In this document: piece after piece, positions 6,652 to 32,753 of the stretch
Numbering within the stretch: position 1 is the first letter of the stretch
How the letters are laid out: every line of letters begins with the position of its first letter
Assembly (NCBI GenBank): GCA_001897425.1
Contig: MKSW01000034.1
Span: forward strand, 1-32,753
DNA from: Actinobacteria bacterium 69-20
GTDB taxonomy: Bacteria > Actinomycetota > Actinomycetes > Mycobacteriales > Nakamurellaceae
Length of the DNA stretch: 32,753 bases
Direction: 5' to 3'
The notes under the pieces: generated by a model
What the model was told of the DNA's origin: nothing
The model's input: only the letters and a program-made list of their open reading frames with translations
Databases searched by the model: none
Position numbers and translations under genes: made by a program

Positions 6652-7510
6652 GGGTGGCGACATGGCCGGCGGCGGGGCTCGTGGACAGGCCGGCGACGGG
6701 GATCGCGACGGTGTTCCGGACGGGGCCCGGGCGACGGACGACGTCATCAACGTCATAGGCGATTCCACCGACTCCGCGGGCGAACCCGTTCGGTTGCAGA
6801 AGGTGCTGTCCGCGGCCGGTGTCGCCTCCCGACGCAAGGCCGAGGAGATGATCCGGGCCGGGCGGGTGCGCGTCGACGGGATCGTGGTCCGCGACATGGG
6901 CGTGCGGATCGACCCGGATCGCGCCGTGGTGCACGTCGACGGCGACCGGGTGGTGCTGCGTCATGACCTGGAATACCTGGCGCTCAACAAGATGCCGGGC
7001 GTGCTGTCCACCATGTCCGACGACGAGGGGCGCGCGACGATCGGCGACCTGCTCGCGGACTGGGGCATTACGACGCGCCTGTTCCATGTCGGGCGGCTGG
7101 ACATCGACTCCGAGGGCCTGCTGCTGCTGACGAATGACGGTGAACTCGCGCATCGGCTGACGCACCCGTCGTTCGGCGTCGCGAAGACCTATATGGCGGA
7201 GATCCCGGGGCCGGTGCCGCGTGACCTGGGCCGGCGGCTGCTGCGCGGGGTCGAACTGGACGACGGGCTCGCCAAGGCCGATTCCTTCGATGTGGTAGAC
7301 GTTCTCGGCGGGCGTGCGGTGGTGAAGGTGGTGCTGCACGAGGGCCGCAAGCGGCTGGTGCGCCGGATGCTCGAGGCGACGGGCCATCCCGTTTCGCGTC
7401 TGGTGCGCACGCAGATCGGGGAGGTGCAACTCGGGCACCAGCGCCCGGGCACGGTGCGGCGCCTGAACCCGGTCGAGATCTCGCGGCTGTATCGGGCGGT
7501 GGGGCTGTGA
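6644..7510 (+). CDS. rluB: 23S rRNA pseudouridine synthase RluB family
   Basis: Converts a uridine of 23S rRNA to pseudouridine (the family targets positions near 2605). An S4 RNA-binding domain covers about residues 47-107 (RLQKVLSAAGVASRRKAEEMI). The catalytic domain has the RsuA/RluB signature HVGRLDIDSEGLLLLTNDG, with Asp153 as the catalytic aspartate, then GRKRLVRRMLEATGHPV. The closest protein I recall is M. tuberculosis Rv1711. ATG at 6644 overlaps the scpB stop. ATG at 6662, after AGGGTGG, is an alternative, so the first ~45 Gly/Asp-rich residues are uncertain. That stretch carries a TATGACG copy at 6751. Confidence 0.92.
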   Translation: MSEGGDMAGGGARGQAGDGDRDGVPDGARATDDVINVIGDSTDSAGEPVRLQKVLSAAGVASRRKAEEMIRAGRVRVDGIVVRDMGVRIDPDRAVVHVDGDRVVLRHDLEYLALNKMPGVLSTMSDDEGRATIGDLLADWGITTRLFHVGRLDIDSEGLLLLTNDGELAHRLTHPSFGVAKTYMAEIPGPVPRDLGRRLLRGVELDDGLAKADSFDVVDVLGGRAVVKVVLHEGRKRLVRRMLEATGHPVSRLVRTQIGEVQLGHQRPGTVRRLNPVEISRLYRAVGL

Positions 7511-9186
7511 CGGTGAGCGGAGCGGGGCGTCATGCGGCGCCGGAGGGCGGGGCGGTTGCTGGCACGGTTGCCGCCTCGGTGGCCCCTGCGAACAGCATCA
7601 TCGCCATCGACGGACCGTCGGGGACGGGCAAGTCCACGGTGGCGAGGACGGTAGCGGAGCGCATCGGCGCCGGGTACCTCGACACCGGCGCGCTGTACCG
7701 GATCGTCACCCTGCATGTGTTGAAGGCCGGGATCGACCCGGGCGACTCCGACGCGGTCGCCGCGGCGCTTGACGGGCTGACCTTTGACGTTCCGACGGAC
7801 CCGCACGCGCAGGTGCACCACCTGGCGGGCCTGGACGTGACCGGCCGCATCCGGGACGCGGACGTGACGGCGGCGGTCTCGGCCGTGTCTGCCATCCCCG
7901 CGGTGCGGGCATTCCTGCTCGATCGGCAGCGCGAGATCGCGCATTCCGGACAGATGGTGATCGAGGGGCGGGACATCGGCACGGTGATCGCGCCCGATGC
8001 GGCCGTGAAGGTCTTCCTCACGGCGGACGCGGCGGTGCGCGCCGGGCGACGGTATCGGCAGGACGCCGCGAGATCGGCGGGCGGGTCGGTGCGGGTCGAT
8101 CCGGGGTCGGCCGGGTCTGATGCGCCTGGGTTTGATGCGGCCGTGGATCGGGTGGCCGTGGATCGCGTGGCCGAAGGGCTCGACCTGCGCGATGCGATCG
8201 ATTCCAGCCGCGCGACCGCGCCGCTGGCGGCGGCAGACGATGCCGTCGTGATCGACTCCACGGATCTGACTGTGGCCGAGACCGTTGCGGCGGTGCTGGC
8301 GCTCGCCCGCGAGCGGGGATTGCCCGGTGTGCCGGGCGAGGTGGCTGCTGGTGACGCCGAACCGGCGCAACTAGATGCCTACGACACACGGGGGTCTCGC
8401 ACGGCCGGTGGCGCGCACGCTGCCGGCAGCGCCCGTGCGGCGACCGCCCCGGTGTCCCCGCCCGTGTCCCTGCCGGTGAAGTGGTTCCGGCTCGGCGGGC
8501 TCGGCGATCCGGTGCCAGTCGGGCGGCGCCCGCGTGACGTCGACCGCGGGCGGCGGATCGGAATCGCGTTGTCCCACATCATGTATCGCATGCGGATCCG
8601 TGGCGAGGAGCGTATTCCGGTCTCCGGTCCGCTGGTGGTCGTCGCGAATCACACGACCTTCGCGGATGGCCCGATCCTGTTCGGCCGGCTGCCACGGCGG
8701 ATCTCGTTCCTGATCAAGGCCGAGGTGCTCGTCGGGCCGCTCGGCTGGCTGCTGCGCACGGTCGGCCAGTATTCGATCGACCGGGCCGCGCCGCAACGAG
8801 AAGTGCTGCTCGCCGCGCTGAACCACCTGAAGGCCGGCGGGGTGATCGGGATCTTCCCGGAGGGCCAGCGCACCGACGGTTCGGTCTCCGAGGTGTTCCA
8901 CGGCGCCGGCTGGCTCGCGGCGCGGGCGGGCGCGACCGTGGTTCCGGTCGCCCTGCGGGGGACTGCCCGTCCGGCGGGTCGGCGGATCAAACGCTTCCGG
9001 CCGAAGGTGTACACGCTCGTGGGTGAGCCGTTCGATATTCCGCCGGGCGCCGGACGAACGGCGATCAACGCGGCGACATCGACTATCCAGCAGCACTTGT
9101 CGGGCCTGGTGGCCGACCTCGATCGTGGACTGGCCCGGGTCGCCGACGATCGCACCCGGTTCGGGCATCGATGGAGGCGACCATGA
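7507..9186 (+). CDS. cmk: Cytidylate kinase fused to a PlsC-type acyltransferase
   Basis: The N-terminal half is CMP/dCMP kinase: P-loop GPSGTGKST at residues 36-44, [11 protein letters not shown], and [13 protein letters not shown]. Its usual Arg-rich segment is lengthened by a Gly/Asp/Val-rich insert with a VDRVA repeat (about residues 200-222). After an Ala/Pro-rich linker (about 275-325), the C-terminal half is a lysophosphatidate-type acyltransferase: HX4D at His382/Asp387 (NHTTFAD) and the EGxR-type motif at Glu452-Gly-Gln-Arg455 (FPEGQRT). Both halves look intact. No stop or frameshift separates them, so the 559-residue protein should be one polypeptide. The GTG start overlaps the rluB stop (GTGA). 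In M. tuberculosis cmk is followed directly by der with no acyltransferase. Confidence 0.93.
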
Positions 9187-10658
9187 GCGATGACGACGTC
9201 AGGCCGGAGTCGGACGAAACCTGGTCTGCCACCTGGGATGCGGACGGAACGTGGAGCGACGAGGCGGAGCTCGCCGGCTGGGAGGAATCCGGCGGCGATT
9301 CCGAAGGCGGATCCACCGATGGGGAATCGGCAGGTGTGACGTCGCCGACGGTCGCCGTGGTCGGTCGGCCGAACGTCGGCAAGTCGACGTTGGTCAACCG
9401 AATTATCGGCCGGCGCGAGGCGGTGGTGCAGGACATCCCCGGGGTGACGCGCGACCGCGTGTCGTACGACGGGCTGTGGAATGGACGGACGTTCACCGTC
9501 GTCGACACCGGGGGGTGGGAGCCGGACGCGCGCGGCATGGCGTCATCCGTTGCGGCACAGGCGGAACGGGCGATGGAGGCGGCCGACGTGGTCGTCATGG
9601 TGGTGGATGCGTCGGTGGGAGCGACCACCACGGACGAGACGATGGCGGGCGTGTTGCGGCGCTCGAAGGTGCCGGTGGTGCTGGTCGCGAACAAGGTGGA
9701 CGACGAGCGCGGCTTCGCCGACGCGGCCGCGCTGTGGTCGCTGGGACTCGGTGAGCCGCACCCGGTGTCGGCGTTGCACGGGCGTGGATCGGGGGACCTG
9801 CTCGACGCGATCATCGCCGCTGTCCCCGATGCCCCGCGGGAGCGGTTCGGGGTGTCGCGCGGCCCGCGGCGGGTGGCGCTGCTCGGTAAACCGAACGTCG
9901 GGAAATCCTCGCTGCTCAACAAGCTCACCGGTGAGTCCCGGTCGGTGGTGCACCACGAGGCCGGCACCACCGTCGACCCGGTCGACTCACTGGTGGAGTT
10001 GGACGGCGAGGTGTGGCGGTTCGTGGACACCGCCGGGTTGCGCCGCAAGGTATCGACCGCATCGGGCACCGAGTACTACGCGTCACTGCGGACCCACAAT
10101 GCCTTGGAGGCGGCTGAAGTCGCCGTCGTGCTGATCGATACGGCCGAGCCGATGGCTGAACAGGATCAGCGGGTGATCTCCATGGTGATCGAATCCGGTC
10201 GCGCGCTGGTGATCGCCATGAACAAGGCGGATTTGGTGGACGCGGACCGCCGGCACGAGTCGGATCGGGAACTGGATCGGGACCTGGCGCGGGTCACCTG
10301 GGCGCAGCGGATCAACATCTCCGCCACGTCCGGCCGAGGCGTGCATCGGCTCGCAGCGGCGCTGCGCACCGCGCTCGCCTCCTGGGACAAGCGGATTCCG
10401 ACCGGGCGGCTGAACACCTGGCTGAAGGACCTGATTGCCGCGACCCCGCCGCCGGTTCGCGGCGGGCGGCAGCCGAAGGTGTTGTTCGCGACGCAGGCGT
10501 CGATCCGCCCGCCGACCTTCGTGCTGTTCACCACGGGCTTCTTGGAGGCCGGCTACCGGCGCTTCATCGAACGTCGGCTGCGCGAGGACTTCGACTTCAC
10601 CGGCTCACCGGTGCGGATCAACGTGCGCATCCGCGAGAAGCGTGCCGGCAAGAGGTAA
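9183..10658 (+). CDS. der: Ribosome-assembly GTPase Der (EngA)
   Basis: An essential double-GTPase for maturation of the 50S ribosomal subunit. The first G domain has GRPNVGKST (residues 61-69), DTGGW and NKVD. The second has GKPNVGKSS (235-243), DTAGLRRK and NKAD. A C-terminal KH-like domain ends in [16 protein letters not shown]. An acidic N-terminal extension of about 55 residues precedes the first G domain. I chose ATG at 9183 because it overlaps the cmk stop (ATGA) and follows GGAGG by six bases; an ATG at 9171 is less likely. This ends the housekeeping operon. The next gene is convergent after 30 bases. Confidence 0.96.
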
Positions 10659-10688
10659 GTCGCGGCCACTCGGGCGGTTCGCGTCGCG

Positions 10689-11129
10689 CTACTCGATCAG
10701 CCGAAGGTCGAGAGCCCGGAACTGCGTGAAGGCCCGGTCGATGGTGACGAACGTGGCGCCGGCGGTGATGGCGAACGCGGCGAGATAGGTGTCGGTCCAC
10801 ATTTTTGGCGATGCTGTCGCGCGGGATGAGAGTTGACACCACACGCTTTCCAGGGAATCTGGTTCGGCAAGTAGTGGCCCCACTCGATCGTCCGCGGCAA
10901 ATTGGCGATAGGCGTCCCATGCACCGTCGTTGTCGAGTGGCGCGCTGCCATAGCGACTCCGTATTGCGCTGTTCGTCGAAAGGCGAAGGAACCCTTGCTG
11001 CGTCGTCCGGCAGAAGCGAATCGACGTTCTGGTGGCAATCGAGTCGAGCCAGTCAACACAGGCGGCATAATGGGTATGTCCGGGCATCGCGAGGGCGACC
11101 CAAACGTTGATGTCAGGAAGAAACACCAC
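10689..11129 (-). CDS. vapC: VapC-type PIN-domain ribonuclease toxin
   Basis: A 146-residue PIN-domain protein that would cleave RNA when freed from its antitoxin. It starts VVFLPDINVWVALA, with Asp6 as the first metal ligand. Asp113 (WTDTYLAAFA) and Asp131 (TIDRAFTQF) supply the other acidic ligands. The usual second-position acid is replaced by the TTQQGFLRL segment, as in the group of actinobacterial PIN paralogues I recall as TIGR00028. Two adjacent GTG codons at 11129 and 11126 are possible starts, both inside the 3' end of vapB, giving an overlap of about 14-17 bases. Much longer in-frame translation upstream is ruled out by the family's N-terminus. Confidence 0.85.
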   Translation of the reverse strand: MVFLPDINVWVALAMPGHTHYAACVDWLDSIATRTSIRFCRTTQQGFLRLSTNSAIRSRYGSAPLDNDGAWDAYRQFAADDRVGPLLAEPDSLESVWCQLSSRATASPKMWTDTYLAAFAITAGATFVTIDRAFTQFRALDLRLIE

Positions 11130-11421
11130 TTGCCCGCAAGAATCGCTCGACGTCTTCGTCTTCCAGAATCTGCGCGATTCGCTCAGGGGTGAGTTCTTCA
11201 CCGGGTGCCGCCGGATGGCCGCCGCGGATCAGGGGCAGCTTCACCCGATGCCGGATCCGATCCGGTTCCGACCGCTGCTCGGGCAGCAGGCCCCGACGCA
11301 GCGCTTCCGTCGCCACGTCCTTGATCCGGCGATGCTCCTGCACGGCCTTGAGCTTCATCTCCTGGACCAGGTCGGCCGGAAGCTCCAGGGTGGTCTTGAC
11401 GGTCTTCAATGGTGTGGGCAT
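11113..11421 (-). CDS. vapB: VapB-type ribbon-helix-helix antitoxin
   Basis: A 102-residue partner of the downstream PIN toxin. The N-terminal stretch KTTLELPADLVQEMKLKAV looks like a ribbon-helix-helix DNA-binding domain (about residues 8-45), and the C-terminal acidic tail (EELTPERIAQILEDEDVERFL) would wrap the toxin. It overlaps vapC at its 3' end, so the two are coupled, antitoxin first. A -10 box lies six bases before the ATG within an array of CCAGG repeats, consistent with autorepression and a leaderless mRNA. Confidence 0.85.
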   Translation of the reverse strand: MPTPLKTVKTTLELPADLVQEMKLKAVQEHRRIKDVATEALRRGLLPEQRSEPDRIRHRVKLPLIRGGHPAAPGEELTPERIAQILEDEDVERFLRASGVSS

Positions 11422-11425
11422 GTCC

Positions 11426-11454
11426 CCAGGTTACCAGGAACCCAGGAAACCTGG
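11426..11454 (-). promoter_or_regulatory. vapBC promoter with CCAGG operator array
   Basis: On the + strand CCAGG occurs at 11426, 11434 and 11442, and CCTGG at 11450, all at an exact 8-base period. The outer copies form an inverted repeat, CCAGGTT...AACCTGG. The - strand -10 box TAACCT (11433-11428) lies inside the array and six bases before the vapB ATG. This is what an autoregulatory ribbon-helix-helix operator should look like. Confidence 0.65.
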
Positions 11455-11483
11455 TCGGCCGTCTGTGAACACCGCGGGTCTGG

Positions 11484-13712
11484 CTACATGGCCCCCATGA
11501 GCGCGCGGGCGGCGGAGATGATGTCGTCTTCGGAGACGAGCACGAGGTTGGCCGCCGGACCCAGGGGTACGAACGAGTCCGCGCTCGCGACGCGAGAGAT
11601 GCTGCCGTGGAAGCCGTTCTCCACCAGCGCGGTAACGATCCCTTCGCCGACGCCGCCGGTGTGTCGGGTCTCGTCCACTACGAGGACGCGCCCGGTGGCC
11701 TGGGCTTCGCGCAGCATGTCGTCGACCGGCAGGGGTGCGAGCCATCGCAGATCGACTATGCGGCAGCGAATTTCGTCATATTCGGTGGACCGCGCGAGGC
11801 GACGGGCGGCACGCAGGGCGAGCGGCACCCCGTTGCCGAAGGTGAGGATCGTGAGGTCTCCGCCGCTGACACCATCGCCGTAGGTACGCGCCGAACCGAT
11901 CGGAACATGCTCGGCAGGAGCGGGATACGGTGTGAGCCAAGCGTTGTCGCCCGCCTCGTAGAGGTCTTTGGTGTGGTAGAGCGCGATCGGCTCCAGGAAT
12001 GCACACACGCTGCCGTCGGCCGCGGCCGCGGCGAGGCACGTGCGCAGCATGGCAGCCGCGTCGTCACCGCGCGACGGGGACGCGATGACGACGCCCGGGA
12101 TGTCCCGCAGCACGGCGATGGAGTTGTCGTTGTGGAAGTGCCCGCCGAAGCCCTTCTGGTAGCCGTAGCCGGCGATGCGCACGACCATCGGGTTGCGGTA
12201 CTGGCCGCGCGAAAAGAATTGCAGCGTCGCGGCTTCCCCGCGGAGTTGGTCCTCGGCATTGTGCAGGTAGGCGAGGTATTGGATCTCGGGCACCGGCAGG
12301 AAGCCGGTGACGGCGGTGCCCAACGCGAGGCCGAGGATGGTCTGCTCGTCGAGCAGCGTGTCGAACACCTTGCCGCGGCCGACGGTTTGCTGCAGTCCCC
12401 GGGTGACGCCGTACACGCCGCCCTTCCGGCCGACATCCTCGCCGAACAGCAGCATCTCGGGCCGTCGGGCGAGCTCGTCGCGCAGCGCCTGGTTGATCGA
12501 CTGCGCGACGGTGAGCGGTGCGCCGACAGCGGCGGACGGCTCCGCGGCCGTCACTTGCGTTGCCACGGCGTGGGTATCGCGCGGCGCGAGCGGCCCGGCG
12601 ACCTCGGCCCGGGTGAGCAGCGGCGTGGACGTGAGCGCCTTCTCGGCGGCCTCCGCGACCTGGGCTCCGATTTCGGCGAACTCGTCCGCGAGTTCCCGCG
12701 CGGTCGTAAGCCCCAGGCCCACGATCGTGCGCGCGGTGCCGAGCAGCGGGTCGCGCTCCTGATCCGCCGCGATCTCCTGAGGCGTGCGGTACGCCGCCTC
12801 CACGTCCGAGCCGGCGTGCCCGTAGAGGCGCACCGTCGCGATGTGCAGGAAGGCGGGAGAACGCTTGCGGCGCACGTAGTCTGCGGCCGCCGTCGCGGCA
12901 TTAAGGACGGCGATCGGGTCCGTGCCGTCGGCCGAGAAGTACTCGAGCCCGGGCCGGGTGCTGTATGTCCGCGCGATCCAGCCGGACGGTGTGTGCACGC
13001 TGATGCCCAGCCCGTTGTCCTCGCACACCAGAAGTAGCGGCATGGGCAGCCCCGAATACCGGCACCATAGCGCCGCGTTGATCGCCCCGACGGCGGTCGA
13101 ATGGTTTGCCGAGGCGTCACCGAAGCTCGCCACCGCGATCGCGTCCGCCGGCCATGCCGATGCCACGCCGAGCTTCTTGGCGCGCTCGATAGCGAACGCC
13201 ACACCCACCGCCCGGGGGAGATGCGAGGCGATGGTGGACGTCTGCGGGATCACGGCGATCTCATGCCGGCCGAAGACCTTGTGCCGCCCGCCGGCGATGG
13301 GCTCGGCCGAATCCGCCGCCACGCCGGCCAACACATCGGCGATCGGGTCGATGCCGGCTCCGCCGGAGTCAGACTGCTGCCAGGCGCGCCGCACATAGAA
13401 CCCGCCGGAACGATAGTGCAGCAGGGCCGGGTCGGTCGGGCGCAGCGTCGCCGCGACCGCCGCGTTCGACTCGTGCCCGGCCGAACCGATCGTGTAGTAG
13501 CCGCGCCCAGCCGCCTGCATCCGTCGCGCCGCCAGATCCAACTGTCGCGACGTTGCCTGCGCCCGGAAGAGGGTCCGCAGCTCCGTGGCGAGGTTGGCGC
13601 TCGGCGTGGCGTTCGCGCTCAGGGTGGCGCGAGAAGAGATGGCACCACCCTCCGCGCGCAGACCGGAGAGGGACGCCCCCAGGGCGGCGGCGATCTCATC
13701 GGGAGTGGACAT
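11484..13712 (-). CDS. 2-oxoacid dehydrogenase E1, alpha and beta subunits fused
   Basis: A thiamine-diphosphate enzyme of the branched-chain/pyruvate dehydrogenase E1 type, decarboxylating a 2-oxo acid. The alpha half (about residues 40-370) has YYTIGSAGHE and the ThDP-binding stretch GDAS (198-201) to EDN (231-233). The beta half (about 405-742) has LLFGEDVGRKGGVYGVTRGL, DEQTILGLALGTAV, EIQYLAYLHNAEDQL and the C-terminal transketolase domain. Many actinobacteria encode these halves separately. No E2 or E3 gene is in the window, so it must borrow them or act alone. It lies downstream of the lysine-degradation genes on the same strand, separated by a 92-base gap with a large hairpin. The substrate cannot be told from sequence. 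Confidence 0.88.
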   Translation of the reverse strand: MSTPDEIAAALGASLSGLRAEGGAISSRATLSANATPSANLATELRTLFRAQATSRQLDLAARRMQAAGRGYYTIGSAGHESNAAVAATLRPTDPALLHYRSGGFYVRRAWQQSDSGGAGIDPIADVLAGVAADSAEPIAGGRHKVFGRHEIAVIPQTSTIASHLPRAVGVAFAIERAKKLGVASAWPADAIAVASFGDASANHSTAVGAINAALWCRYSGLPMPLLLVCEDNGLGISVHTPSGWIARTYSTRPGLEYFSADGTDPIAVLNAATAAADYVRRKRSPAFLHIATVRLYGHAGSDVEAAYRTPQEIAADQERDPLLGTARTIVGLGLTTARELADEFAEIGAQVAEAAEKALTSTPLLTRAEVAGPLAPRDTHAVATQVTAAEPSAAVGAPLTVAQSINQALRDELARRPEMLLFGEDVGRKGGVYGVTRGLQQTVGRGKVFDTLLDEQTILGLALGTAVTGFLPVPEIQYLAYLHNAEDQLRGEAATLQFFSRGQYRNPMVVRIAGYGYQKGFGGHFHNDNSIAVLRDIPGVVIASPSRGDDAAAMLRTCLAAAAADGSVCAFLEPIALYHTKDLYEAGDNAWLTPYPAPAEHVPIGSARTYGDGVSGGDLTILTFGNGVPLALRAARRLARSTEYDEIRCRIVDLRWLAPLPVDDMLREAQATGRVLVVDETRHTGGVGEGIVTALVENGFHGSISRVASADSFVPLGPAANLVLVSEDDIISAARALMGAM

Positions 13713-13743
13713 GGGCTCTCCGGCTCTCCTGCAGCGGAACTAT

Positions 13744-13795
13744 CGCCTCGTGTGTACCACGCGGCGATATGGCGCCACCTGGCACACACGAGGCG
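13744..13795 (-). terminator. 12-bp perfect inverted repeat between the dehydrogenase and E1 genes
   Basis: CGCCTCGTGTGT at 13744-13755 is perfectly matched by ACACACGAGGCG at 13784-13795, leaving a 28-base loop. It lies between the stop of the upstream aldehyde dehydrogenase gene and the start of the E1 gene. There is no T-run. It may be a terminator, an mRNA processing hairpin, or two half-sites for a repressor. Confidence 0.5.
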
Positions 13796-13804
13796 GGCGG
13801 GGAA

Positions 13805-15370
13805 TTACAGCCGGAAGTCCATATCGGGCGTCATCTCGACGATGTCCATCTGCGCCTTCTGCAGCTTGCCCGAGTAGTCCCAGTTCATCGCCTGCCAGCG
13901 GGTGAACTGGTCCAACACCCACATGCCGGACTGGCGAGACCCGTTGCCGGACTTGCCGTTCCCGCCGAACGGCAGGTGTGCCTCGGCGCCGGACGTGGAG
14001 TTATTCACCGATACCATGCCGGCCGAGATCCCGCGCCGGAAGGTGAAGACGGACTTCGGGTCGTTCGTGTAGATGGACGACGACAGGCCGTACCCTGGCT
14101 TGTTCCCGAGCCGGATCGCCTCGTCCAGGTCCCGGTAGGTCGTCACGCCGACGATCGGGCCGAACGTCTCGTTCATGAAGATTTCGTCGTCGGGACGCAC
14201 CCCGTCGACGATCACCGGGTGATAGAACAGACCGGCCTCTGGATCCCCGACGAAGCCCTCGCGTGGGTTCGAGGCGGAGATCCGGCCGGTGCCCGTCGAG
14301 CCGTACACCTTGTGGTGCGGCGCGATCCAGCCGAGATACTTCTCGTAGGTGTCGGCGAACTTCGGCGCCAGCATCGGCCCGTAGAGCACGTCCTTCGTCG
14401 GGTCGCCCACCACGGCGGCACGGGTTGCGGCGTCGAACCGGCGCAGGAAGTCGTCATGGACGGACTCGTGGACGATCACCGTGCCGAGCGACGTGCAGCG
14501 CTGCCCGCCGGTACCGAATCCGGCGAACAGGGCGCCCTCCACGGCGAGGTCCAGGTCAGCGTCCGGGCACACCACCATCGGGTTCTTGCCGCCGAGTTCC
14601 AGGCATGCGGACTGCACGTACCGACCGGTGAGCTCGCCGATCTTGGCGCCGACCACCGAGGAACCGGTGAAGCCGCTCTTGTCGAGAGTCCCTTCGGCCA
14701 AAGCCATCTCGAGGCCGGCAAAGGTCGCCGCGCCGTCCGCGTGCACGATATTGAGCACCCCGTCTGGCAGCCCGCCGCCGCGCACGAAGATCTCGTAGAA
14801 CGCCTGCGCCGCCTTCGCGCTGTACTCCGCCGGCTTCCACACCACGCTGTTTCCGGTGAGCAGCGCCGGGACGATGTACCAGGACGGCACCGCCACCGGG
14901 AAGTTGCCCGCGGTGATCACGGCCACGGTGCCCACCGGATTGCGGAACGTGAACAGGTTCTTGTCCGGCACCTCGCTCGGCACCGTCTGCCCGTACAGGC
15001 GCCGGCCCTCGCCGAGGAAGAAGTCGCAGGTGTCGATGATCTCGCGCACCTCGCCGAGCGCCTCCGCGTACGGCTTGCCGATCTCCTCGGTCACGATGCG
15101 GGCGAGCCGGTCGGCGTTCGCCTCGACCAGTCGGCCGATGGTGGCGATGGCCCGGCCGCGGATCGGCGCCGGCACATCGGCCCACTTCCGCTGGGCGTCG
15201 GTCGCCGCCCGGCAGGCCCGCGCGAAGGTCTCGGCGGAGGCGAGCGTCACCTCGGCCACCACTTGGTCGAGGTGAGAAGGGTTGGCGGACTTCAATACCC
15301 GATCGTCCGGGTCTGGTTCGACGACCTGCCCTCCGACGATCGAGCGAACGGATACCGGCTGTGCGGCCAT
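13805..15370 (-). CDS. pcd: Aldehyde dehydrogenase, probable aminoadipate-semialdehyde (piperideine-6-carboxylate) dehydrogenase
   Basis: An NAD(P)-dependent aldehyde dehydrogenase of 521 residues. The catalytic Cys292 is in GGQRCTSLG and the general base Glu258 in ELGGKNP. The cofactor region ITAGNFPVAVPSWYIVPAL and KPAEYSAKA is present. Its upstream neighbour by only eight bases is lysine 6-aminotransferase, whose product cyclises to piperideine-6-carboxylate. That makes oxidation to L-2-aminoadipate the most likely job. M. tuberculosis has a similar lat/pcd neighbourhood. The substrate is inferred from context, while the enzyme class is certain. The ATG at 15370 is followed by a typical short N-terminal arm. 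Confidence 0.85.
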   Translation of the reverse strand: MAAQPVSVRSIVGGQVVEPDPDDRVLKSANPSHLDQVVAEVTLASAETFARACRAATDAQRKWADVPAPIRGRAIATIGRLVEANADRLARIVTEEIGKPYAEALGEVREIIDTCDFFLGEGRRLYGQTVPSEVPDKNLFTFRNPVGTVAVITAGNFPVAVPSWYIVPALLTGNSVVWKPAEYSAKAAQAFYEIFVRGGGLPDGVLNIVHADGAATFAGLEMALAEGTLDKSGFTGSSVVGAKIGELTGRYVQSACLELGGKNPMVVCPDADLDLAVEGALFAGFGTGGQRCTSLGTVIVHESVHDDFLRRFDAATRAAVVGDPTKDVLYGPMLAPKFADTYEKYLGWIAPHHKVYGSTGTGRISASNPREGFVGDPEAGLFYHPVIVDGVRPDDEIFMNETFGPIVGVTTYRDLDEAIRLGNKPGYGLSSSIYTNDPKSVFTFRRGISAGMVSVNNSTSGAEAHLPFGGNGKSGNGSRQSGMWVLDQFTRWQAMNWDYSGKLQKAQMDIVEMTPDMDFRL

Positions 15371-16782: not shown

Positions 16783-17194
16783 GACCGAGGGGAGGAGTGA
16801 CGGGTTCGCATGCGCCGCGCCCCGTTCCGGCTGTCAGCCACCGAGTATGACGCTGTTCGCGCCGCGGCTCCGCCGGCGGCGGCATCGTCTCTGTTGCCCC
16901 GCCCCACCACGCGAGAGGCTCACCCGATAGGGCCGTGTCCGATGTGCCGCAGCAGGTGCGGCGTTTCGCGGGCTTCGGGTGCGCGAACGACCCCGGGCGG
17001 TGTCGGGGCAGCGCGCCGTCATCTCCGTAGGGCCGCGACGATGATCGGAAACCACCGCGCGCACGACCTGCATATCGCCCACGATAGGCGGTCGTCGTGC
17101 ATGGTCGAGGCGATCACGACCGGGTTCCGCCAGTGCCTCGTCCTGGCACGGCTTTTCGCTCGATGGATCGCCGGTCGCCCGTCCGGGCGTCGCC
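16783..17194 (+). other. Intergenic region with no convincing gene
   Basis: About 410 bases lie between the divergent lat and lipoprotein genes. Open frames here are Arg/Pro-rich and look like composition artefacts. It holds one TATGACG copy (16846). A 17-base stretch around it is identical to the start of the Nudix gene (GTATGACGCTGTTCGCG at 1920), probably coincidence anchored on the motif. Confidence 0.5.
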
Positions 17195-17200
17195 TACAAT
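17195..17200 (+). promoter_or_regulatory. -10 box for leaderless lipoprotein gene
   Basis: TACAAT lies six bases before the ATG at 17207. No good -35 box is visible at 17 bases upstream, which is common in actinobacteria. Confidence 0.5.
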
Positions 17201-17206
17201 CGGCCG

Positions 17207-18553
17207 ATGCGCGTCCGCCGCCTTGCGATGATCATCGCCGCCGCCCTTGTGGTGCCGGCTGCGTGCACCGGCGGGGGAGCGGGGACGGTGAAAGGCGCGG
17301 CGCCCGCCGCCGGACCGGCCAGCGGGTCCGCGTCGACGGGTATGACGGCGTCCACGGCCGGGCCCGGTTCCACCAGTGTCGGCGCGGAGGGGACTGCCGC
17401 GAGCACGGGACCCGATCCCTGGCAGGCGCCCACGTCCGCGTTGGTGCTCACGCCGACATCTGCTGCGGGGCAGTCGATTTCGACGTCGTTGAGCATGACG
17501 TCACCGGCGCCCACGGCGACACCCGCATCGACCGTGACGCAGACTGCGACGCGGCCTGCGCAAACCGCGGCGGCCTCGTCGACCACACGCGGCTCGACCG
17601 CCACGCCTGCTCCCACCGCCCCACCGACGACGTCCGCGAAACCGCCCGCGCCGGTTGCCAGCGGCGCGGATGTCCTCTCGGGCACCAAGTGTCAGATCTT
17701 CCCGAACGACAACGCCTGGCACTCGGACATTTCGAAGCTTCCGCTCGCCAAACAGGGTGCCGCATGGCTCGCGTCGATGGGCGCCGCGAGCCGCACACTG
17801 CACCCTGATTTCGGCCCCTCCTACGGCGAGGCGCCGGTTCCCTACGGCATTCCCATTACGATCGCACCCGCCGGGACGAAACGGGTTCCGGTGCGCTTCG
17901 ACTATGACGCGGAGTCGGACCGGATCGCGTACCCGCTCACGGCGGCGACCCTGATCGAGGGCGGCTCGAACTCGGACGGAGACCGGCATGCGATCGTCGT
18001 CACCGCCGATACCTGTGAACTGTTCGAGACCTACGACTCCCGGCAGACGGCGACGGGATGGACCGCCGGCTCCGGCGCGCACTGGTCGCTCGCGAGCGAT
18101 GTGCTGCGGCCCGCTGGGTGGACCTCTGCGGATGCCGCCGGACTGCCGATCCTCCCGGGCCTGCTGCGCTGGTCCGAGGTCAAGGCAGGCGCCGTGCACC
18201 ACGCGATCCGGTTCACCACATCCCGGACGGCGGCCGCCTACGTGTGGCCCGCGCGCCACCAGGCCGGCAGCGGATCCGTCGCGTCCTACCCGCCGATGGG
18301 GGCGCGATTCCGGCTCAAGGCGAGTTTCGCCCTGCCGGGGTTCAGCAGCAGCGCGCAGGTGATCTTGCGCGCCATGCAGACCTACGGCTTGATCCTGGCG
18401 GACAACGGCTCGCCGTGGTTCTTCCAGGGCGACGCCGATCCGGGATGGCCGCCGTCGCTGATCGCCGAACTCAAGAAGATCCCCGCCAACGCCTTCGAGG
18501 CCGTGGACACGTCGTCACTCATGATGTCCGCCGACTCGGGGCGATCGCGGTAG
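17207..18553 (+). CDS. Putative secreted lipoprotein with conserved C-terminal domain of unknown function
   Basis: 448 residues. The N-terminus is a lipoprotein signal peptide: RVRR, a hydrophobic core (LAMIIAAALVV) and a lipobox ending PAAC, so Cys20 would be lipidated after cleavage. Residues 21 to about 155 are a low-complexity Thr/Ala/Pro/Ser linker that would span the envelope. The C-terminal ~290 residues form one domain with NAWHSDISKLP, LHPDFGPSYGE, EGGSNSDGDRHAIVV, LRPAGWTSADAAGLPILPGLLR, HAIRFTTSRT and ASYPPMGARFRLKAS. I have seen this domain in unnamed extracellular proteins of actinobacteria but know no function. Its last 343 bp are duplicated at 25596. Two TATGACG copies lie inside. 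Confidence 0.85.
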   Translation: MRVRRLAMIIAAALVVPAACTGGGAGTVKGAAPAAGPASGSASTGMTASTAGPGSTSVGAEGTAASTGPDPWQAPTSALVLTPTSAAGQSISTSLSMTSPAPTATPASTVTQTATRPAQTAAASSTTRGSTATPAPTAPPTTSAKPPAPVASGADVLSGTKCQIFPNDNAWHSDISKLPLAKQGAAWLASMGAASRTLHPDFGPSYGEAPVPYGIPITIAPAGTKRVPVRFDYDAESDRIAYPLTAATLIEGGSNSDGDRHAIVVTADTCELFETYDSRQTATGWTAGSGAHWSLASDVLRPAGWTSADAAGLPILPGLLRWSEVKAGAVHHAIRFTTSRTAAAYVWPARHQAGSGSVASYPPMGARFRLKASFALPGFSSSAQVILRAMQTYGLILADNGSPWFFQGDADPGWPPSLIAELKKIPANAFEAVDTSSLMMSADSGRSR

Positions 18554-27129: not shown

Positions 27130-27300
27130 GCTGAACTCGCCATCGCCGACAACACCACCATCACCGTGATCGAGCTAGCGACCGGGGAAATCCTCTCCAT
27201 CCACCTCATCGAGCCCAATAAGACCTACTGGCGCAACAAAGACAGAAGCCCGGGCCGATGGCCCGGGCTTCCACAGCGACCTATGTCACGACTCATGTGA
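27130..27300 (+). pseudogene. C-terminal remnant of an IS481-like transposase
   Basis: A frame without a start runs from just after a TAG at 27127 to a TGA at 27298. It reads ADNTTITVIELATGEIL, then IHLIEPNKTYWRN and PGRWPG, which resembles the C-terminal end of IS481/integrase-type transposases. The DDE core is absent, so only the last ~56 codons survive. A strong hairpin and repeated IS-end-like sequence overlap its 3' end. It marks the left boundary of the low-GC defence region. Confidence 0.5.
27246..27270. terminator. 11-bp perfect hairpin (bidirectional terminator-like)
   Basis: AAGCCCGGGCC (27246-27256) and GGCCCGGGCTT (27260-27270) are perfectly complementary around a GAT loop. The stem is very stable with A-rich and T-ending flanks on either strand. 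It separates the + strand peptidase side from the - strand defence operon and could terminate transcription from both. Confidence 0.6.
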
Positions 27301-27319
27301 GACACATGTCCCGACTCAT
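27283..27319. repeat. Tandem 14-mers at the IS remnant end
   Basis: ATGTCACGACTCAT (27283-27296) and ATGTCCCGACTCAT (27306-27319) differ by one base at a 23-base period. The outer end, read on the - strand, begins TGTGATGAGTCGGGACATGT, which resembles IS481-type terminal repeats. It is probably the right terminus of the element, and the 3' end of the adjacent - strand gene runs into it. Confidence 0.45.
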
Positions 27320-27955
27320 CACACTCGGGTTAGGTGCAGGCAGTTGCTGCTCCTCGATACGGATCGTGTAACGGTGCCAGTCAGATGCCGCTTGAAACCT
27401 AGCCAACCAGAGTTCCGTTGCGCCGGGCGGATCGTCGGCGTCACGACTCGCGCGATCACGGAACCAGACGTCTGAAATGCCCTGCGGGAGGACAAGATCA
27501 TCAACCTGCTCCCCAGTTCTGTCTTCGTAGGAGTCGGAAAGACCATAGAAGTAGGAGCCGTCCCTGTGCTGCTGCGCAAACAGGAAGAGATGCCGTTCAT
27601 TCACCGGTTGATCTAGAAGTTTCTCGAAGTTCTGATGTGCCCACCGTGTGTCCAGCATCCCGGCGCATACTTGCGCTAACGCATTCAGACGCAACGGGAT
27701 CGATCCGCTCTCGGTCTGGGGTTGACCCGCCCTCTTCGTTCGCGCCCACTCAGCCAACAAACGCTCGGCTGGCGGTGAGGTGACCTCTACAAGGCCCTGG
27801 CGCCCTCTGTTGCCGGGGTATGCCAAACAGCCATCCGGCATTTTGTCGTCAGCCCCTGCGTCCGCCAGCCAAACGTCGACACCAAGCACCTGCTCCACAG
27901 CCAGGAACGCAATCTCCTCTTCGCGACTGGCCTTCGTGCCGACCGCGTTGCTCAT
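27293..27955 (-). CDS. Defence-linked protein of unknown function, possible PD-(D/E)xK-like nuclease
   Basis: 220 residues and not recognised by name. Near the N-terminus, ADDKMPDGCLAYPG followed by GRQGLVEVTSP looks like the PD...ExT/K arrangement of some restriction-fold proteins in which EVT replaces ExK. This is a motif impression only. The rest is mixed alpha/beta with many Trp and Gln residues and no membrane segment. It lies 66 bases downstream of the ATPase gene on the same strand, with GAGGA about ten bases before ATG 27955, so it is likely a third gene of the operon. Its last ~10 residues are read from the IS-end repeat, so the natural C-terminus may be lost. Confidence 0.6.
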   Translation of the reverse strand: MSNAVGTKASREEEIAFLAVEQVLGVDVWLADAGADDKMPDGCLAYPGNRGRQGLVEVTSPPAERLLAEWARTKRAGQPQTESGSIPLRLNALAQVCAGMLDTRWAHQNFEKLLDQPVNERHLFLFAQQHRDGSYFYGLSDSYEDRTGEQVDDLVLPQGISDVWFRDRASRDADDPPGATELWLARFQAASDWHRYTIRIEEQQLPAPNPSVMSRDMCLT

Positions 27956-28021
27956 AGGCTCAGTATCCTCTGGTTTCGGGGTTGCGCGGTGCCGGGTGAA
28001 CCACGAGCGGCTGCCCGGTCG

Positions 28022-30589
28022 CTAGGCCTGTTCCTCATCTGCTTGGGGCAGGTCGCCAACATATGCGTGGATCGTTGCCAGCACATTTTCGGGCTTGATG
28101 TTCAGTTCCACTCGGTCCTCACGGGCCATGAAGTAGCCGGGAGCCATTCGGCTCAACGCCAAGCACTCTTCGCGCAACTCAGTGTCGGTGATCGTCAGTT
28201 TCTTGGTGAGGCGGAGCGCAGTTCTGAGAGCCGCATACTCGGCGGTGTGGTCTCGATCATTTTGCTGTAGCTCCCACACCGTCTCAAGAATCTGTTGGTG
28301 TGGGCTGGATTCGGGCTGGGATGCGGCGATGGTATCGACCCACTGTTCCGCGTCGGCCGGGCTCTGACAGGTAGCGAGCAACTCGCGCATCTTGGTTAGG
28401 TTGACTCGCTTGATTGGCGCCAGCCTTACCAACCTCGCCAAGTCCTTTGCCCGCATGAGGGTTATACCCTTGGTCGGGTTCGCTACCCGATCTGCCTGGA
28501 TTTCTCGCATCACGGCGCCGAGGTCGTCTGGCCCAGTCTCGAAATCCGGTCCTACGACGATTGCAAAATCGCAATCTGCTTCATCGCGATGGCGCGCGAT
28601 TGTGGATACTTCGACGCCACTCTTCTTCACCTTTCCGCCAGGCTTCTCCTTACTCTTGGCTTCCAGGGATACTCGATACTTGGTCTGTCCGTTCGGCCCC
28701 GCGGGCAGGAACGCCTCAGCGAGTCCGTCTTGCTCGTCTTTTGCTGCCTTCGGAACAGCCTCGAAGCCGAGTTGCTGGAAGACCTCCACAAGCGCAAGTT
28801 CGAGACCCTTGGCGCTAGTTAGCGATGCCATCAAACCCTGCGCAACGGTGATCGAGTTGCGGGCACCCGAAGACCGCGCGAGGTGACGGAGTAGTTCATC
28901 ACGAGTATCTAGGACCGTTATCGCGGCGGAACCATCGAGATTCGCATCGTGGAGACCTGCCTCAAGCAGAATCTCGGCCATCGCAAAAAGTTCCAGGGGC
29001 AGATTCTTCTTGCGATCGTTGAACTCGTCTGCAAAATGCGCAACGAACGGATGCTCAAGGTTGATCGAAAGCTGTCCGGTTGCGATGTCCAGCATTGCCA
29101 TCGGAAGCAGTGTGCCGAGGTCTTCATATACGACATCGCCGATCAGGCCGCCGCCGCTCGTGATCCGGCTTTCGAGAAAGGCGATCAGTTCGGCAGAGGT
29201 CGGGAACTCCTTCTTGTCGATCGGAACGAGATGACGGGAGTGAATCTTCTCCTCGTACGAGTCCACGACCATGCGTAGGATAGGTCGCTCAGTGAGGCTC
29301 GCGGGGCTGTCAGCAAATCGCTGTGAGGCGCGCCTTTCGCGAGCGGTCTCAGTTTCGTGTGCATCCAGTTTCGTGCGTGCAAGGTTAAAAAGACCACGAA
29401 GGAGTTCTCGGGCACGCTCGACCACGGGGCTCGCGAGCAACGTTTCGCGGCTAGACCGGAGCTCGGCGTCGAGGCGATCGATGTTAATGACCAGGCGGAA
29501 CCGTGAGAATGTGCCGTGCCGAAGGCTGTTTCGGTCGATACCGAATCCTGAGTCGTCGGGGTTGATGAGTCGTCCGTGGACATAGACGAAGAAACCGTTG
29601 CTTCTCCCGACAACCTCAGATTTTCCCGCGTCTATAGGGTCTTCATAGAGTTCGAGGTAGCCGCTGATAGGTCCCAGGCTCTTGTCGACCAGGAGGTAAT
29701 GCTGGTACTCGCCCTCGGGTACCTTCTCGTCCGTATCGGTGTCTAGTTCTCCGGGCGCAGGGCTCGGGATGGTGAGAATGTCCTTGCCGAGAACCCATGT
29801 CCCGACCTGCTTTGCTGACGCCTTGGAAGCGACGACTTTGTTGCCGTTCAAATACAGCGAGAAGTCGTCACGCAGCGGCATCGCCGTCGAGAGCACCCAT
29901 CGAAGCCTGCCTGCGGAGAGTTCAATCGCCATCGGCTTTAGTTCCGTGATGATCGCGACAGTCCAGGAGTCCTCGGCTCCCTCTCCGAAGAGGGTGATGT
30001 TCTCGCGACCGGTGTCGTCAGATAGCCAGGGACGTACGGTTCTGTGGGCTTCCTCCTCGGTGAGTTCACGAAGCGGAAGCTGGACTGGTGGTATCGCGGC
30101 GCTCTCGGAGCCGTCAGTGCGTTCGATCGCCGGTGGGGGCGTCGGAATCGCTTTGAAGTCCATCGTTGTGGAGAAGAACTTTCCATCCGACTTGGTGATG
30201 TGCGTCAGGCGGGTTCCGAGGACGTACGCTGCGAGCTTACCGATCCCAAATTTGCCGATAGTGCGGCGACCACGGGCGGTTGTGCGGTTGCTCGTCTTTA
30301 CTGAGTCTCCAACGATCCAATGAACCTTGAGCCCTGCGGCGTCCATTCCGGTTCCGTTGTCAAGGATTGCGATAGATGCGTCGCTCGCTGCCCGGTCGGG
30401 TGACATCACAGTATGGACACAAGTTGCGTCAGCATCGAAGGCATTCGAGACGAGTTCCTCGATCGCCTTGTTAGGGCTACTGTAGAGACCTTCGGAAAAC
30501 AGGCCGATGATCTGGAAGCTGATTTCGACATTGATGTGGTCCGTGACCGTGCCTGATTCGAAGAATGCGGTCCCGAGCGAGTCAGTCAT
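28022..30589 (-). CDS. GHKL (MutL/MORC/Hsp90-like) ATPase with C-terminal restriction-nuclease-like domain
   Basis: 855 residues. The N-terminal GHKL ATPase has all motifs: N box EELVSNAFDADA (44-55), DNGTGMD (77-83) and GKFGIGKLA (112-120), followed by a transducer-like region. The VTDHINVEISFQIIGLFSEGLYSS start resembles Hsp90/MORC-type proteins. The middle (about 250-600) is unassigned. Near the C-terminus, Asp621, then YRVSLEAK with Glu643-x-Lys645, and STIARHRDEADCDFAIVVG have the layout of a PD-(D/E)xK/Mrr-like nuclease. ATG 30589 overlaps the methyltransferase stop (ATGA), so the two are co-translated. Predicted restriction-modification systems with MutL/MORC-like ATPases have been described by comparative genomics. 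I infer the same role: ATP-driven restriction of DNA lacking the partner's methylation. Confidence 0.82.
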   Translation of the reverse strand: MTDSLGTAFFESGTVTDHINVEISFQIIGLFSEGLYSSPNKAIEELVSNAFDADATCVHTVMSPDRAASDASIAILDNGTGMDAAGLKVHWIVGDSVKTSNRTTARGRRTIGKFGIGKLAAYVLGTRLTHITKSDGKFFSTTMDFKAIPTPPPAIERTDGSESAAIPPVQLPLRELTEEEAHRTVRPWLSDDTGRENITLFGEGAEDSWTVAIITELKPMAIELSAGRLRWVLSTAMPLRDDFSLYLNGNKVVASKASAKQVGTWVLGKDILTIPSPAPGELDTDTDEKVPEGEYQHYLLVDKSLGPISGYLELYEDPIDAGKSEVVGRSNGFFVYVHGRLINPDDSGFGIDRNSLRHGTFSRFRLVINIDRLDAELRSSRETLLASPVVERARELLRGLFNLARTKLDAHETETARERRASQRFADSPASLTERPILRMVVDSYEEKIHSRHLVPIDKKEFPTSAELIAFLESRITSGGGLIGDVVYEDLGTLLPMAMLDIATGQLSINLEHPFVAHFADEFNDRKKNLPLELFAMAEILLEAGLHDANLDGSAAITVLDTRDELLRHLARSSGARNSITVAQGLMASLTSAKGLELALVEVFQQLGFEAVPKAAKDEQDGLAEAFLPAGPNGQTKYRVSLEAKSKEKPGGKVKKSGVEVSTIARHRDEADCDFAIVVGPDFETGPDDLGAVMREIQADRVANPTKGITLMRAKDLARLVRLAPIKRVNLTKMRELLATCQSPADAEQWVDTIAASQPESSPHQQILETVWELQQNDRDHTAEYAALRTALRLTKKLTITDTELREECLALSRMAPGYFMAREDRVELNIKPENVLATIHAYVGDLPQADEEQA

Positions 30590-31761
30590 GGCTTCTTCAC
30601 CGTCAGGACGACTTCGGTTCGCATGCGCTTGGCCATAGACGACTCACGGTTGATCGTCCGGACCGGGAGGTACCGTCTATTCTCCGGTAACTCGCGCTCG
30701 GTGCGAGCCTCGACACGGAAGTCTGAATACTCATACGCCTTTCGAACGAGAACATCATTCTGGATGTAGTTTCCACGCAGCGTAGAGTTGCCGATAACGG
30801 TGACGATCTCCGATCCAGCCTTGCACACGCGGTCGAGTTCACGCGAGAAGAGTACAAGATCGTGTGCGTAGCGAGTGATCGTCGCTGCTGGAAGTTGATC
30901 GGGCGCGTCCACTGAGTCCTTGATGTACTGCACCATGTCATCGACTTGTTTGAGCGCATCGCCGTCGAGCGCGCGTTCTGCACCGATGCTGCGGGAGCGA
31001 ATCTTGCGTAGCTCGGGGATCGTGTGACCGAACCAGATCAGCGACATCCTGTGTCCACGCAGGTAGTCGATCGCATTGAGGTACGGCGGTGACGTAATAA
31101 TCAGATCGACTGACGAATCTGGCAGATCAAGCGCTCGCGCGTCTCCCCTACTGACCTCCACCTGCCCAACAGTGGATCGCTGATCGAGCAGCTTTCTGAT
31201 GCTCGCGACCGAGCCCTCGAACCCTCGATACACGTCGTAGCTGGATTCGGTCGCCACACGGTGGGGCCTGCTGTGCGAGGTGTCGGCTGCCAGCGAAGCC
31301 TTGGGTGCCTTCGTAATGATGATCCGGCTTAGGGCCACTTGAAGCGCCTGACGGACGGAGTCCTCGCTAACGTCGTCCAGTTCTCGCGAGAGACGGTTGA
31401 GTTGACTACGCTGCGTCTCTGCGAACCAGTACTCCGCGAACTTGAGCGTCTCTGCGTCATCCCACCGCGGCCCGTCCACCCTTGACGCCCGCGCACGCGC
31501 ACAGACGCGCTCGGCCTCAGCGACGACCTGCTCAGTATCTACGGGCTTGGTCGCAACCGAACTCATGAGGACAGCGAGAGGATCGACGTCGAACCCGCGC
31601 GCGGCATGGCCTCGATCGGCCGCCGCGGCGAGGACCGTTCCTGATCCGCACATCGGATCGAGGACTATCAACTCGGTATTGCTTTCCCTGGCATCAAGGT
31701 GGTCAATCGCGATGTCAGGTGCCATTCTGGCTGGGAACGGATGGATTGTCCTTGCACCCAT
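30586..31761 (-). CDS. DNA methyltransferase, SPPY type (N4-cytosine or N6-adenine)
   Basis: 391 residues. The start TIHPFPARMAP is a conserved opener of this methylase group. SAM-binding motif I is DPMCGSGT (35-42), followed by GFDVDPLA, and catalytic motif IV is TSPPYLNAIDY starting at Thr223. The order I then IV, with ~180 residues between, could leave room for a target-recognition segment there, as in alpha-class enzymes. TSPPY is most often an N4-cytosine signature, but the target cannot be told. The ATG at 31761 follows a strong AGGAG. It is first of the operon and presumably protects host DNA from the ATPase-nuclease encoded next. Confidence 0.9.
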   Translation of the reverse strand: MGARTIHPFPARMAPDIAIDHLDARESNTELIVLDPMCGSGTVLAAAADRGHAARGFDVDPLAVLMSSVATKPVDTEQVVAEAERVCARARASRVDGPRWDDAETLKFAEYWFAETQRSQLNRLSRELDDVSEDSVRQALQVALSRIIITKAPKASLAADTSHSRPHRVATESSYDVYRGFEGSVASIRKLLDQRSTVGQVEVSRGDARALDLPDSSVDLIITSPPYLNAIDYLRGHRMSLIWFGHTIPELRKIRSRSIGAERALDGDALKQVDDMVQYIKDSVDAPDQLPAATITRYAHDLVLFSRELDRVCKAGSEIVTVIGNSTLRGNYIQNDVLVRKAYEYSDFRVEARTERELPENRRYLPVRTINRESSMAKRMRTEVVLTVKKP

Positions 31762-31829
31762 CAGTACTCCTATGTGTCATACGTTCCGGCGCCAGCTGAC
31801 GTGCTCTTAGAGGCCGCAAGTTTTTCATC

Positions 31830-31856
31830 ATCCTAAGGGCGTAGAGGTTAGGTCAA
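31830..31856 (-). promoter_or_regulatory. Weak candidate promoter of the defence operon
   Basis: On the - strand TTGACC (31856-31851) and TAGGAT (31835-31830) are 15 bases apart, shorter than ideal. They lie about 70 bases upstream of the methyltransferase ATG, leaving room for a 5' leader that contains AGGAG. Confidence 0.3.
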
Positions 31857-31955
31857 TGAAGACCGCCTGCGTGTCTGATCGTATCGGTGCCCACCGACAT
31901 GATCGCGTCGCCGGCGCCGGAGGAACTGGGAAAAACTGAAGCGCTCGAAGTTTTC

Positions 31956-32721
31956 TGGATATCCCCCGTTTTTGTGGACGCCTCGTGTAGGAGGGGTTCA
32001 TGGAAGCAAGTGGGATGCCGGCCGGGTCTGCTGGGCGGCGGAAGTTCACGGCCGAGTTCAGGGCTGATGCGGTCGCGTTGGTGCTCGACGAGGACCGGTC
32101 GATCGCGGACGTGGCGCGCAGTGTCGGGATCGTGGAGCAGACGCTCGGGAACTGGGTGCGCCAGGCCCGGATCGACCGGGGCGAGAAGGAGGGCCTGACC
32201 ACGGACGAGCGGGTCGAGCTGGTGCGGCTGCGCAAGGAGAACCGGCAGCTGCTCATGGAGCGTGAGCTCTTAAAACGAGCAACGGTCTTCTGGGTCCAGG
32301 AGTCAACACGATGACCCGGGTCTATTGGGTCGACTCCCGGAAGGCCGAGGGCTTCCTCGTGGCGGCCGCGTGTGCCGTCGCAGGGATTTCCACCAGCGCT
32401 TACTACCAGTTCGTCGGACGCGGCGGGCCGAGCGTCAAGGACTGGGCCGATGCGCGTCTGGTCAACATGATGGTCGACATCCACCGCGCCAGCGACAAGA
32501 CGTATGGGGTGCCGCGCATGACCCGGGAGCTGGCCGACCGCGGTATCGAGGCCAACCACAAGCGGGTCGAACGGCTGATGCGCGAGAACAACCTGGTGGG
32601 GGTGCACAAGCGCCGCAAGGTGCGCACCACGATCCCCGCGGAGGAGAACCCGCCGGTCCCGGACCTGGTCGGGCGGCGGTTCGCGCCCGGTGAACCGGAT
32701 GTCGCATGGTGCTCGGACTTC
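31956..32721 (+). mobile_element. Truncated IS3-family insertion sequence
   Basis: The left end probably begins near TGGATATCCCCCGTTTTTG, which resembles IS3-group terminal repeats. orfA is intact and orfB stops after the first catalytic Asp region. The right part is missing, replaced by a palindrome at 32715. No target-site duplication can be assigned because the right end is absent. Confidence 0.75.
32000..32314 (+). CDS. IS3-family transposase OrfA
   Basis: 104 residues. A helix-turn-helix of the transposase_8 type, RRKFTAEFRADAVALVLDE with VARSVGIVEQTLGNWVRQ, is followed by a leucine-zipper-like segment (VELVRLRKENRQLLMERELL) that normally mediates dimerisation. The ATG is preceded by AGGAGGGG. 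It overlaps orfB by four bases (ATGA). In intact IS3 elements the two frames are joined by -1 frameshifting, but I saw no clean slippery heptamer here. Confidence 0.9.
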   Translation: MEASGMPAGSAGRRKFTAEFRADAVALVLDEDRSIADVARSVGIVEQTLGNWVRQARIDRGEKEGLTTDERVELVRLRKENRQLLMERELLKRATVFWVQESTR

Positions 32722-32724
32722 TAA
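32311..32724 (+). pseudogene. IS3-family transposase OrfB, truncated
   Basis: 137 codons out of the usual ~280. The HTH_21 region (TYGVPRMTRELADRGIEANHKRVERLMRENNLVGV) is intact. The frame ends at GEPDVAWCSDF followed by TAA, just after the first Asp of the DDE catalytic triad. The other two catalytic residues are lost, so the element cannot transpose by itself. The break coincides exactly with the left arm of the palindrome at 32715-32748. Confidence 0.85.
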
Positions 32725-32748
32725 TGCCGACGTCGGCATTAGACGTCC
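32715..32748. repeat. 34-bp near-perfect palindrome at the orfB break
   Basis: GGACTTCTAATGCCGAC (32715-32731) faces GTCGGCATTAGACGTCC (32732-32748), with one mismatch and no spacer. The inner 24 bases are perfect. It may be a terminal repeat of another element inserted into orfB, a resolvase- or recombinase-type site, or a fold-back created by rearrangement or assembly. Confidence 0.7.
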
Positions 32749-32753
32749 TATGC

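Follow-up and report, generated by a model that had tools for sequence, protein, structure and literature searches.

A three-gene operon near one end of a contig of Actinobacteria bacterium 69-20 raises the question of which of its products, if any, would cut DNA, and whether a GHKL-type ATPase could itself be the restriction enzyme of a restriction-modification (R-M) system. The stretch analysed, here called the window, comprises 32,753 nucleotides (GenBank assembly GCA_001897425.1, contig MKSW01000034.1, positions 1 to 32,753), and the operon occupies positions 27293-31761 of the minus strand. An earlier reading of the letters alone, the original prediction, had described a compact defence operon bracketed by insertion sequences (IS) and encoding a SPPY-type DNA methyltransferase, a GHKL ATPase with a C-terminal ExK motif and a third protein with a possible PD...EVT motif. 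The evidence below supports a lateral acquisition of the operon and its interpretation as an R-M system centred on a MutL/MORC-like ATPase to which a predicted nuclease is fused. Three minus-strand open reading frames (ORFs) of 391, 855 and 220 residues are present as predicted, the first two sharing the bases ATGA (30586-30589) as methyltransferase stop and GHKL start, which gives a 4-base overlap, and the third starting 66 nt behind the GHKL stop. The G+C content of 27293-31761 is 58.7%, compared with 68.6% in bases 1-27000, as the predicted lower value requires.

The middle gene (28022-30589, minus strand) encodes the 855-residue GHKL ATPase, followed in the same chain by a putative S5-like middle region and a predicted nuclease domain, as assigned through PF13589, NF050001 and Foldseek. 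The ATPase domain (residues 37-148; 30146-30481, minus strand) was matched by PF13589 with an E-value of 9.3e-20, and the ATP-site residues E45-N49, D77-G79 and G112/G115/G117-K118 were unchanged in 10/10 aligned GHKL proteins, which bears out this part of the original prediction. In a Foldseek search with the model of the protein, the 50 matches listed were Hsp90/TRAP1, MORC2, MORC3, MORC4 and SMCHD1, with no nuclease among them; phmmer against PDB sequences gave one MutL and otherwise Hsp90-type proteins among the 60 matches listed. The S5-like region was seen only via the Foldseek alignments to MORC2, MORC3 and MORC4 chains (399-516 columns). Within the MORC S5 motif GhXhhpXXRhl, G332 and R340 are unchanged at the right spacing (10/10), and the polar position is a valine in 7/7 rows. 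The phage collection contained no match to the GHKL protein, and the plasmid search returned 14 records, none reaching 80% coverage.

The predicted nuclease domain spans residues 582-725 (28415-28846, minus strand), with E597, D621, E643 and K645 as the putative catalytic residues. It was aligned with 11 other domains, including two from proteins without GHKL (G132 and G370), and E597, [DE]621, [DE]643, A644 and K645 were kept in 12/12; because the sequences were partly picked by this similarity, the count describes conservation inside the family and is no independent test. The predicted ExK motif is found as E643-A-K645, within the pattern E597-[DE]621-[DE]643-x-K645. At E ≤ 0.5, Mrr_cat matched 7/12 domains (best 1.1e-7), the window domain scoring 0.0023, under the gathering score. 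The nuclease-domain profile matched HindIII with an E-value of 0.0013, the DAK motif being aligned, and a Holliday-junction resolvase with 0.24, while the PADLOC Mrr-like nuclease ZorD was matched by two of the 12 domains (best 6.6e-5). The AlphaFold2 model of the GHKL protein, computed with seven sequences (mean predicted local distance difference test, pLDDT, 67.8; predicted template modelling score, pTM, 0.40), shows a helix at 593-606, strands at 610-614, 622-627 and 639-644, a helix at 661-670 and a strand at 675-680, with D621 preceding the second strand and E643/K645 closing the third. This alpha-beta-beta-beta-alpha-beta order of residues 593-680 is what we take to be the PD-(D/E)XK core. 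From the conserved pattern, the modelled topology and the weak matches to Mrr_cat and HindIII, the C-terminus of the GHKL protein is predicted to be a nuclease. The same domain also stands without GHKL at two loci, preceded by weakly matched winged-helix regions in G370 (L060 7992-10226) and at the start of the reading frame in G132 (L058 7720-9327).

The first gene (30586-31761, minus strand) encodes the 391-residue DNA methyltransferase, which matched UPF0020 (5.7e-10), PADLOC MTase_II (2e-30) and phrog_18146 (2.2e-29), a PHROGs family annotated as DNA methyltransferase. It starts with HPFPARMAP and carries DPMCGSG (residues 35-41) and TSPPY (223-227; TSPPYLNAIDY), so that it is of the SPPY type, as proposed; as the HPFPARMAP start is kept in relatives, the N-terminus is likely genuine. 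The enzyme is predicted to be an amino-methyltransferase acting on N4 of cytosine or N6 of adenine. Homologues with 40-48% identity were found on the five viral contigs L082, L084, L085, L087 and L089, in the examined stretches of which no GHKL gene was detected; these are candidate phage self-protection enzymes.

A scan of genome contigs gave two loci homologous to window positions 27324-31929 (minus strand), in Brevibacterium sp. HMSC07C04 (L002) and Cellulosimicrobium cellulans PW (L003), with nucleotide identities of 82.4% and 82.7% (blastn, 4612 columns); both contain all three genes in the order of the window, and the homology extends 168 bp upstream of the methyltransferase start. L002 7532-13588 and L003 7533-13589 are 99% identical over 6,058 columns, a segment that includes all three genes and some or all of a DprA-like gene, and such identity across different genera points to a recent transfer between them. 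Beside the trio, L003 has this DprA-like gene (PF02481) and a TrwC relaxase gene (PF08751, 6e-95). Ratios of nonsynonymous to synonymous substitution rates (dN/dS, NG86) relative to L003 were 0.063 for the methyltransferase, 0.030 for the GHKL protein and 0.174 for the third gene (211 codons), and ranged from 0.03 to 0.20 across the trio when both the Brevibacterium and the Cellulosimicrobium copies were compared. The low values relative to L003 indicate purifying selection on all three genes as protein-coding sequences, the third being the fastest-evolving of them, with 75% identity to the L003 copy.

Full-length GHKL proteins were compared at 11 loci, including the window, from 9 lineages. 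A methyltransferase gene directly adjoins the GHKL gene at 10 of the 11 loci and is next but one at L081 (PF00145, 1.1e-38); the methyltransferase family of the window occurs at 7/11 loci, in 5/9 lineages, and GHKL-nuclease genes stand beside methyltransferase genes in distant bacteria and on viral contigs. One of the latter, L078, has at 6710-13921 a single cluster of a GHKL-nuclease, two methyltransferases (one a 5-methylcytosine, m5C, enzyme), a protein with a FokI cleavage domain and Vsr. The conserved trio for which the original prediction proposed to survey gene neighbourhoods was found in part: the three genes do stand together in some homologues, but the third accompanies the other two in one lineage only (three genomes), and the examined loci (11.6-19.0 kb) of the remaining 8 GHKL lineages gave no match to it, on which ground a conserved trio was rejected. 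As judged from these neighbourhoods, the conserved core is the two-gene unit of methyltransferase and GHKL protein, with a helicase outside it.

The third protein (27293-27955, minus strand; 220 residues; dN/dS 0.17-0.20) has relatives in L002, L003 and G619 and a decayed one in G220, and belongs to no family in Pfam (at gathering score; best match Dppa2_A, 0.0037), PADLOC, NCBIfam or PHROGs; the best match among PDB sequences had an E-value of 0.84, and plasmids and viral contigs gave nothing useful. Homology of the ORF ends at 27324, the relatives being about 22 residues longer, and their tail AGWR.P (GWR.P) is shared by the G619 copy. On this alignment the window ORF is truncated at its 3' end, which is replaced from about 27324, so that its last residues come from unrelated sequence. 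The original prediction was right on the size and on part of the motif: D41 and E57-[VI]-T59 (E57-V-T59 in the window) are kept in 4/4 intact or nearly intact copies, but P40 is variable and T59 occupies the expected lysine position in all four. Because the lysine is absent at the third place, a canonical PD-(D/E)XK site is not present, and the nuclease role suggested for this protein is not supported. Its structure prediction was very poor (pLDDT 39) and gave no fold; the order of secondary structure is compatible with a PD-(D/E)XK core, which, in a model of this quality, counts as no evidence. A nuclease fold, whose absence from both proteins was to speak against the original prediction, is supported in the GHKL protein and not in the third.

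Strong matches to the third protein were obtained in 2 of 345 genomes (G000, G220), 3 of 297 (G220, G472, G619) and 2 of 396 (G000, G220), these samples overlapping and G472 being taken as the same record as L002. Weak matches in G164, G225, G367, G763, G810 and G902 (E 0.0014-0.0089) cover part of the profile, none spanning D41 and E57, and were dropped as chance; the stretch in G367 contains two stops, and a re-scan of all six loci gave nothing notable there. In G619 (L065 5096-10854) the relative is intact, 48% identical to that of L002, and lies without the trio between genes matching AAA_13 (1.6e-98) and Abi_C (1.4e-8), in what is likely a defence island. In G220 (L059 8193-8862) the copy has lost its start, is frameshifted and stands directly behind a type I cluster, hsdM-hsdM-hsdS-hsdR according to Pfam; this genome has no GHKL match at E ≤ 1e-10. 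We infer that the third protein is an optional accessory for target recognition or control, perhaps impaired here by the loss of its C-terminal tail. A further idea, which we put forward tentatively and regard as doubtful, is that it founds an undescribed defence-island family that passes among dissimilar restriction systems, accompanying a GHKL type here and a type I system in G220 and standing by itself in G619, perhaps as a lysine-less PD-(D/E)XK derivative that would serve as a target-sensing or control subunit of a GHKL restriction enzyme.

For comparison with described systems, Iyer et al. (2008; PMC2292703) place MORC and paraMORC ATPases in R-M operons, with a helicase in about 70% of MORC neighbourhoods and a minority without; the class to which the original prediction assigned the operon is of this kind, helicase-free versions included. 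Type 3 operons in that account combine a GHKL protein with a superfamily II helicase (DThhQXuRhFG) and a nuclease, often with a methyltransferase, whereas the trio has no neighbouring helicase gene in the window, as originally noted, or in L002 or L003; such an absence is not unusual among relatives. Closest among the paraMORC families is paraMORC3, described there with a fused E-D-ExK nuclease; like it, the window protein has a GHKL domain, a putative S5-like region and a predicted C-terminal E-D-ExK nuclease, as well as R-M neighbourhoods, some helicase-free, and the window domain agrees with paraMORC3 in the E-D-ExK motif (12/12 conservation) and in the model topology. The paraMORC3 domain, however, is said there to match RecB-family nucleases, with a subset standing alone, whereas the matches of the window domain and its relatives are Mrr/HindIII-like, with no RecB-family model among them (Mrr_cat, HindIII, Holliday resolvase, ZorD), and each full-length locus found has a methyltransferase nearby.

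BbrUII/HgiDII (NF050001) resembles the window system in its GHKL N-terminus and DNA methyltransferase partner, the match covering GHKL and middle region (residues 42-414) in the L078 relative. In the window protein the match ends by residue 149 and scores 58.6 bits against a cut-off of 550, on which membership in this equivalog was rejected, and the methyltransferases differ, that of the window being of the TSPPY type and theirs m5C enzymes (M.HgiDII with the site GTCGAC, and M.BbrUII; PMC5867850). paraMORC-like proteins are likewise linked to m5C operons in PMC8011034. The GHKL-type Shedu protein VcSduA, according to PMC12137116, stops phages, for which both active sites are needed, and it requires E27 and K557. 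It has the same fusion of a GHKL ATPase to a PD-(D/E)xK nuclease, but its nuclease is DUF4263 and it is described as acting alone; DUF4263 found no match in the whole window GHKL protein (E ≤ 1) or in the 12 nuclease domains (E ≤ 0.5), and Shedu membership was rejected. Characterised systems related in kind do exist, namely VcSduA and BbrUII/HgiDII, the latter entered in NCBIfam as restriction enzymes, so that the earlier statement that few, if any, members are characterised was too strong. Among the papers listed by an open-access literature search, none dealt with this operon or with the pairing of a GHKL-nuclease and a TSPPY methyltransferase. GHKL-based R-M as such is already known, and the operon appears to be a helicase-free GHKL-nuclease variant of it with an optional third protein.

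The reading that we consider probable is a helicase-free R-M system in which the GHKL protein is the restriction enzyme. The linkage of methyltransferase and restriction gene by which such systems are recognised is found as an overlap here, and as adjacent or next-but-one genes in 11/11 loci. The methyltransferase would mark the recognition site in host DNA; on ATP binding, the GHKL protein would dimerise like MORC, Hsp90 and MutL and clamp the DNA, and the two C-terminal nuclease domains of the clamped dimer would cut DNA without the mark. In an unlikely alternative, the GHKL protein would assist by remodelling, in the way that MutL assists MutH; the cutter would be an unlinked nuclease or the third protein, and the C-terminal fold would bind DNA or be regulatory. 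DNA looping as proposed for MORC-like proteins by Iyer et al. (PMC2292703), the HNH, Vsr or FokI-type nucleases near some relatives and the D..E-x-T of the third protein would suit it; the catalytic pattern unchanged in 12/12 domains, together with a third protein that has no lysine and no relative in the examined loci of the other lineages, argues against it. Still less probable is a decaying island that no longer works in this genome: the third ORF has lost its 3' end and a cut IS3 element lies at the contig end, but the methyltransferase and GHKL ORFs are intact and under strong purifying selection relative to L003, with which a very recent loss would still be compatible, and homology is retained over the 168 bp upstream of the methyltransferase. 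The weakest alternative, a Shedu-like single-protein defence in which the GHKL-nuclease senses phage features other than missing methylation and the methyltransferase has a separate role, draws on the anti-phage GHKL-DUF4263 protein VcSduA (PMC12137116) and is made very unlikely by the lack of a DUF4263 match and by the methyltransferase adjacent or next but one to GHKL in 11/11 loci.

The bracketing by IS elements was confirmed on one side. Upstream of the operon, an IS3-family orfA and a cut orfB (32000-32724, plus strand) matched NF033516 with 46.6 and 103.5 bits at profile positions 1-82 and 93-223 of 369; orfB is considered cut because the match reaches only position 223. The contig ends (32753) 29 bp past the orfB stop, and a palindromic repeat at 32715-32753, of which copies in both orientations lie close to one end of contig C36, indicates an assembly break at a repeat. 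At the 3' end of the operon, the short stretch proposed as an IS481 remnant (27130-27320, plus strand) could not be confirmed as such, having no plasmid match (DNA or protein), no second copy in the genome and no NCBIfam match. In the rest of the window (1-27009), 11 of the 12 scanned ORFs belong to ordinary families (CTP synthase, NUDIX, ParA, cytidylate kinase, EngA GTPase, E1 dehydrogenase, aldehyde dehydrogenase, FAD oxidoreductase, FGGY kinase, DeoR regulator and S66 peptidase), and one (16810-17808) was unmatched.

The viral homologues of the methyltransferase without a GHKL gene in the examined stretches suggest, without proving it, an arms race over the methyl mark. In the literature examined, the mechanism of MORC-like ATPases in DNA restriction has been little tested, and the compact two-gene form, which lacks a helicase and combines ATPase and predicted nuclease in a single chain, would be convenient for asking whether the GHKL clamp itself permits cutting; the answer would also be relevant to MutL and to the eukaryotic MORC proteins.
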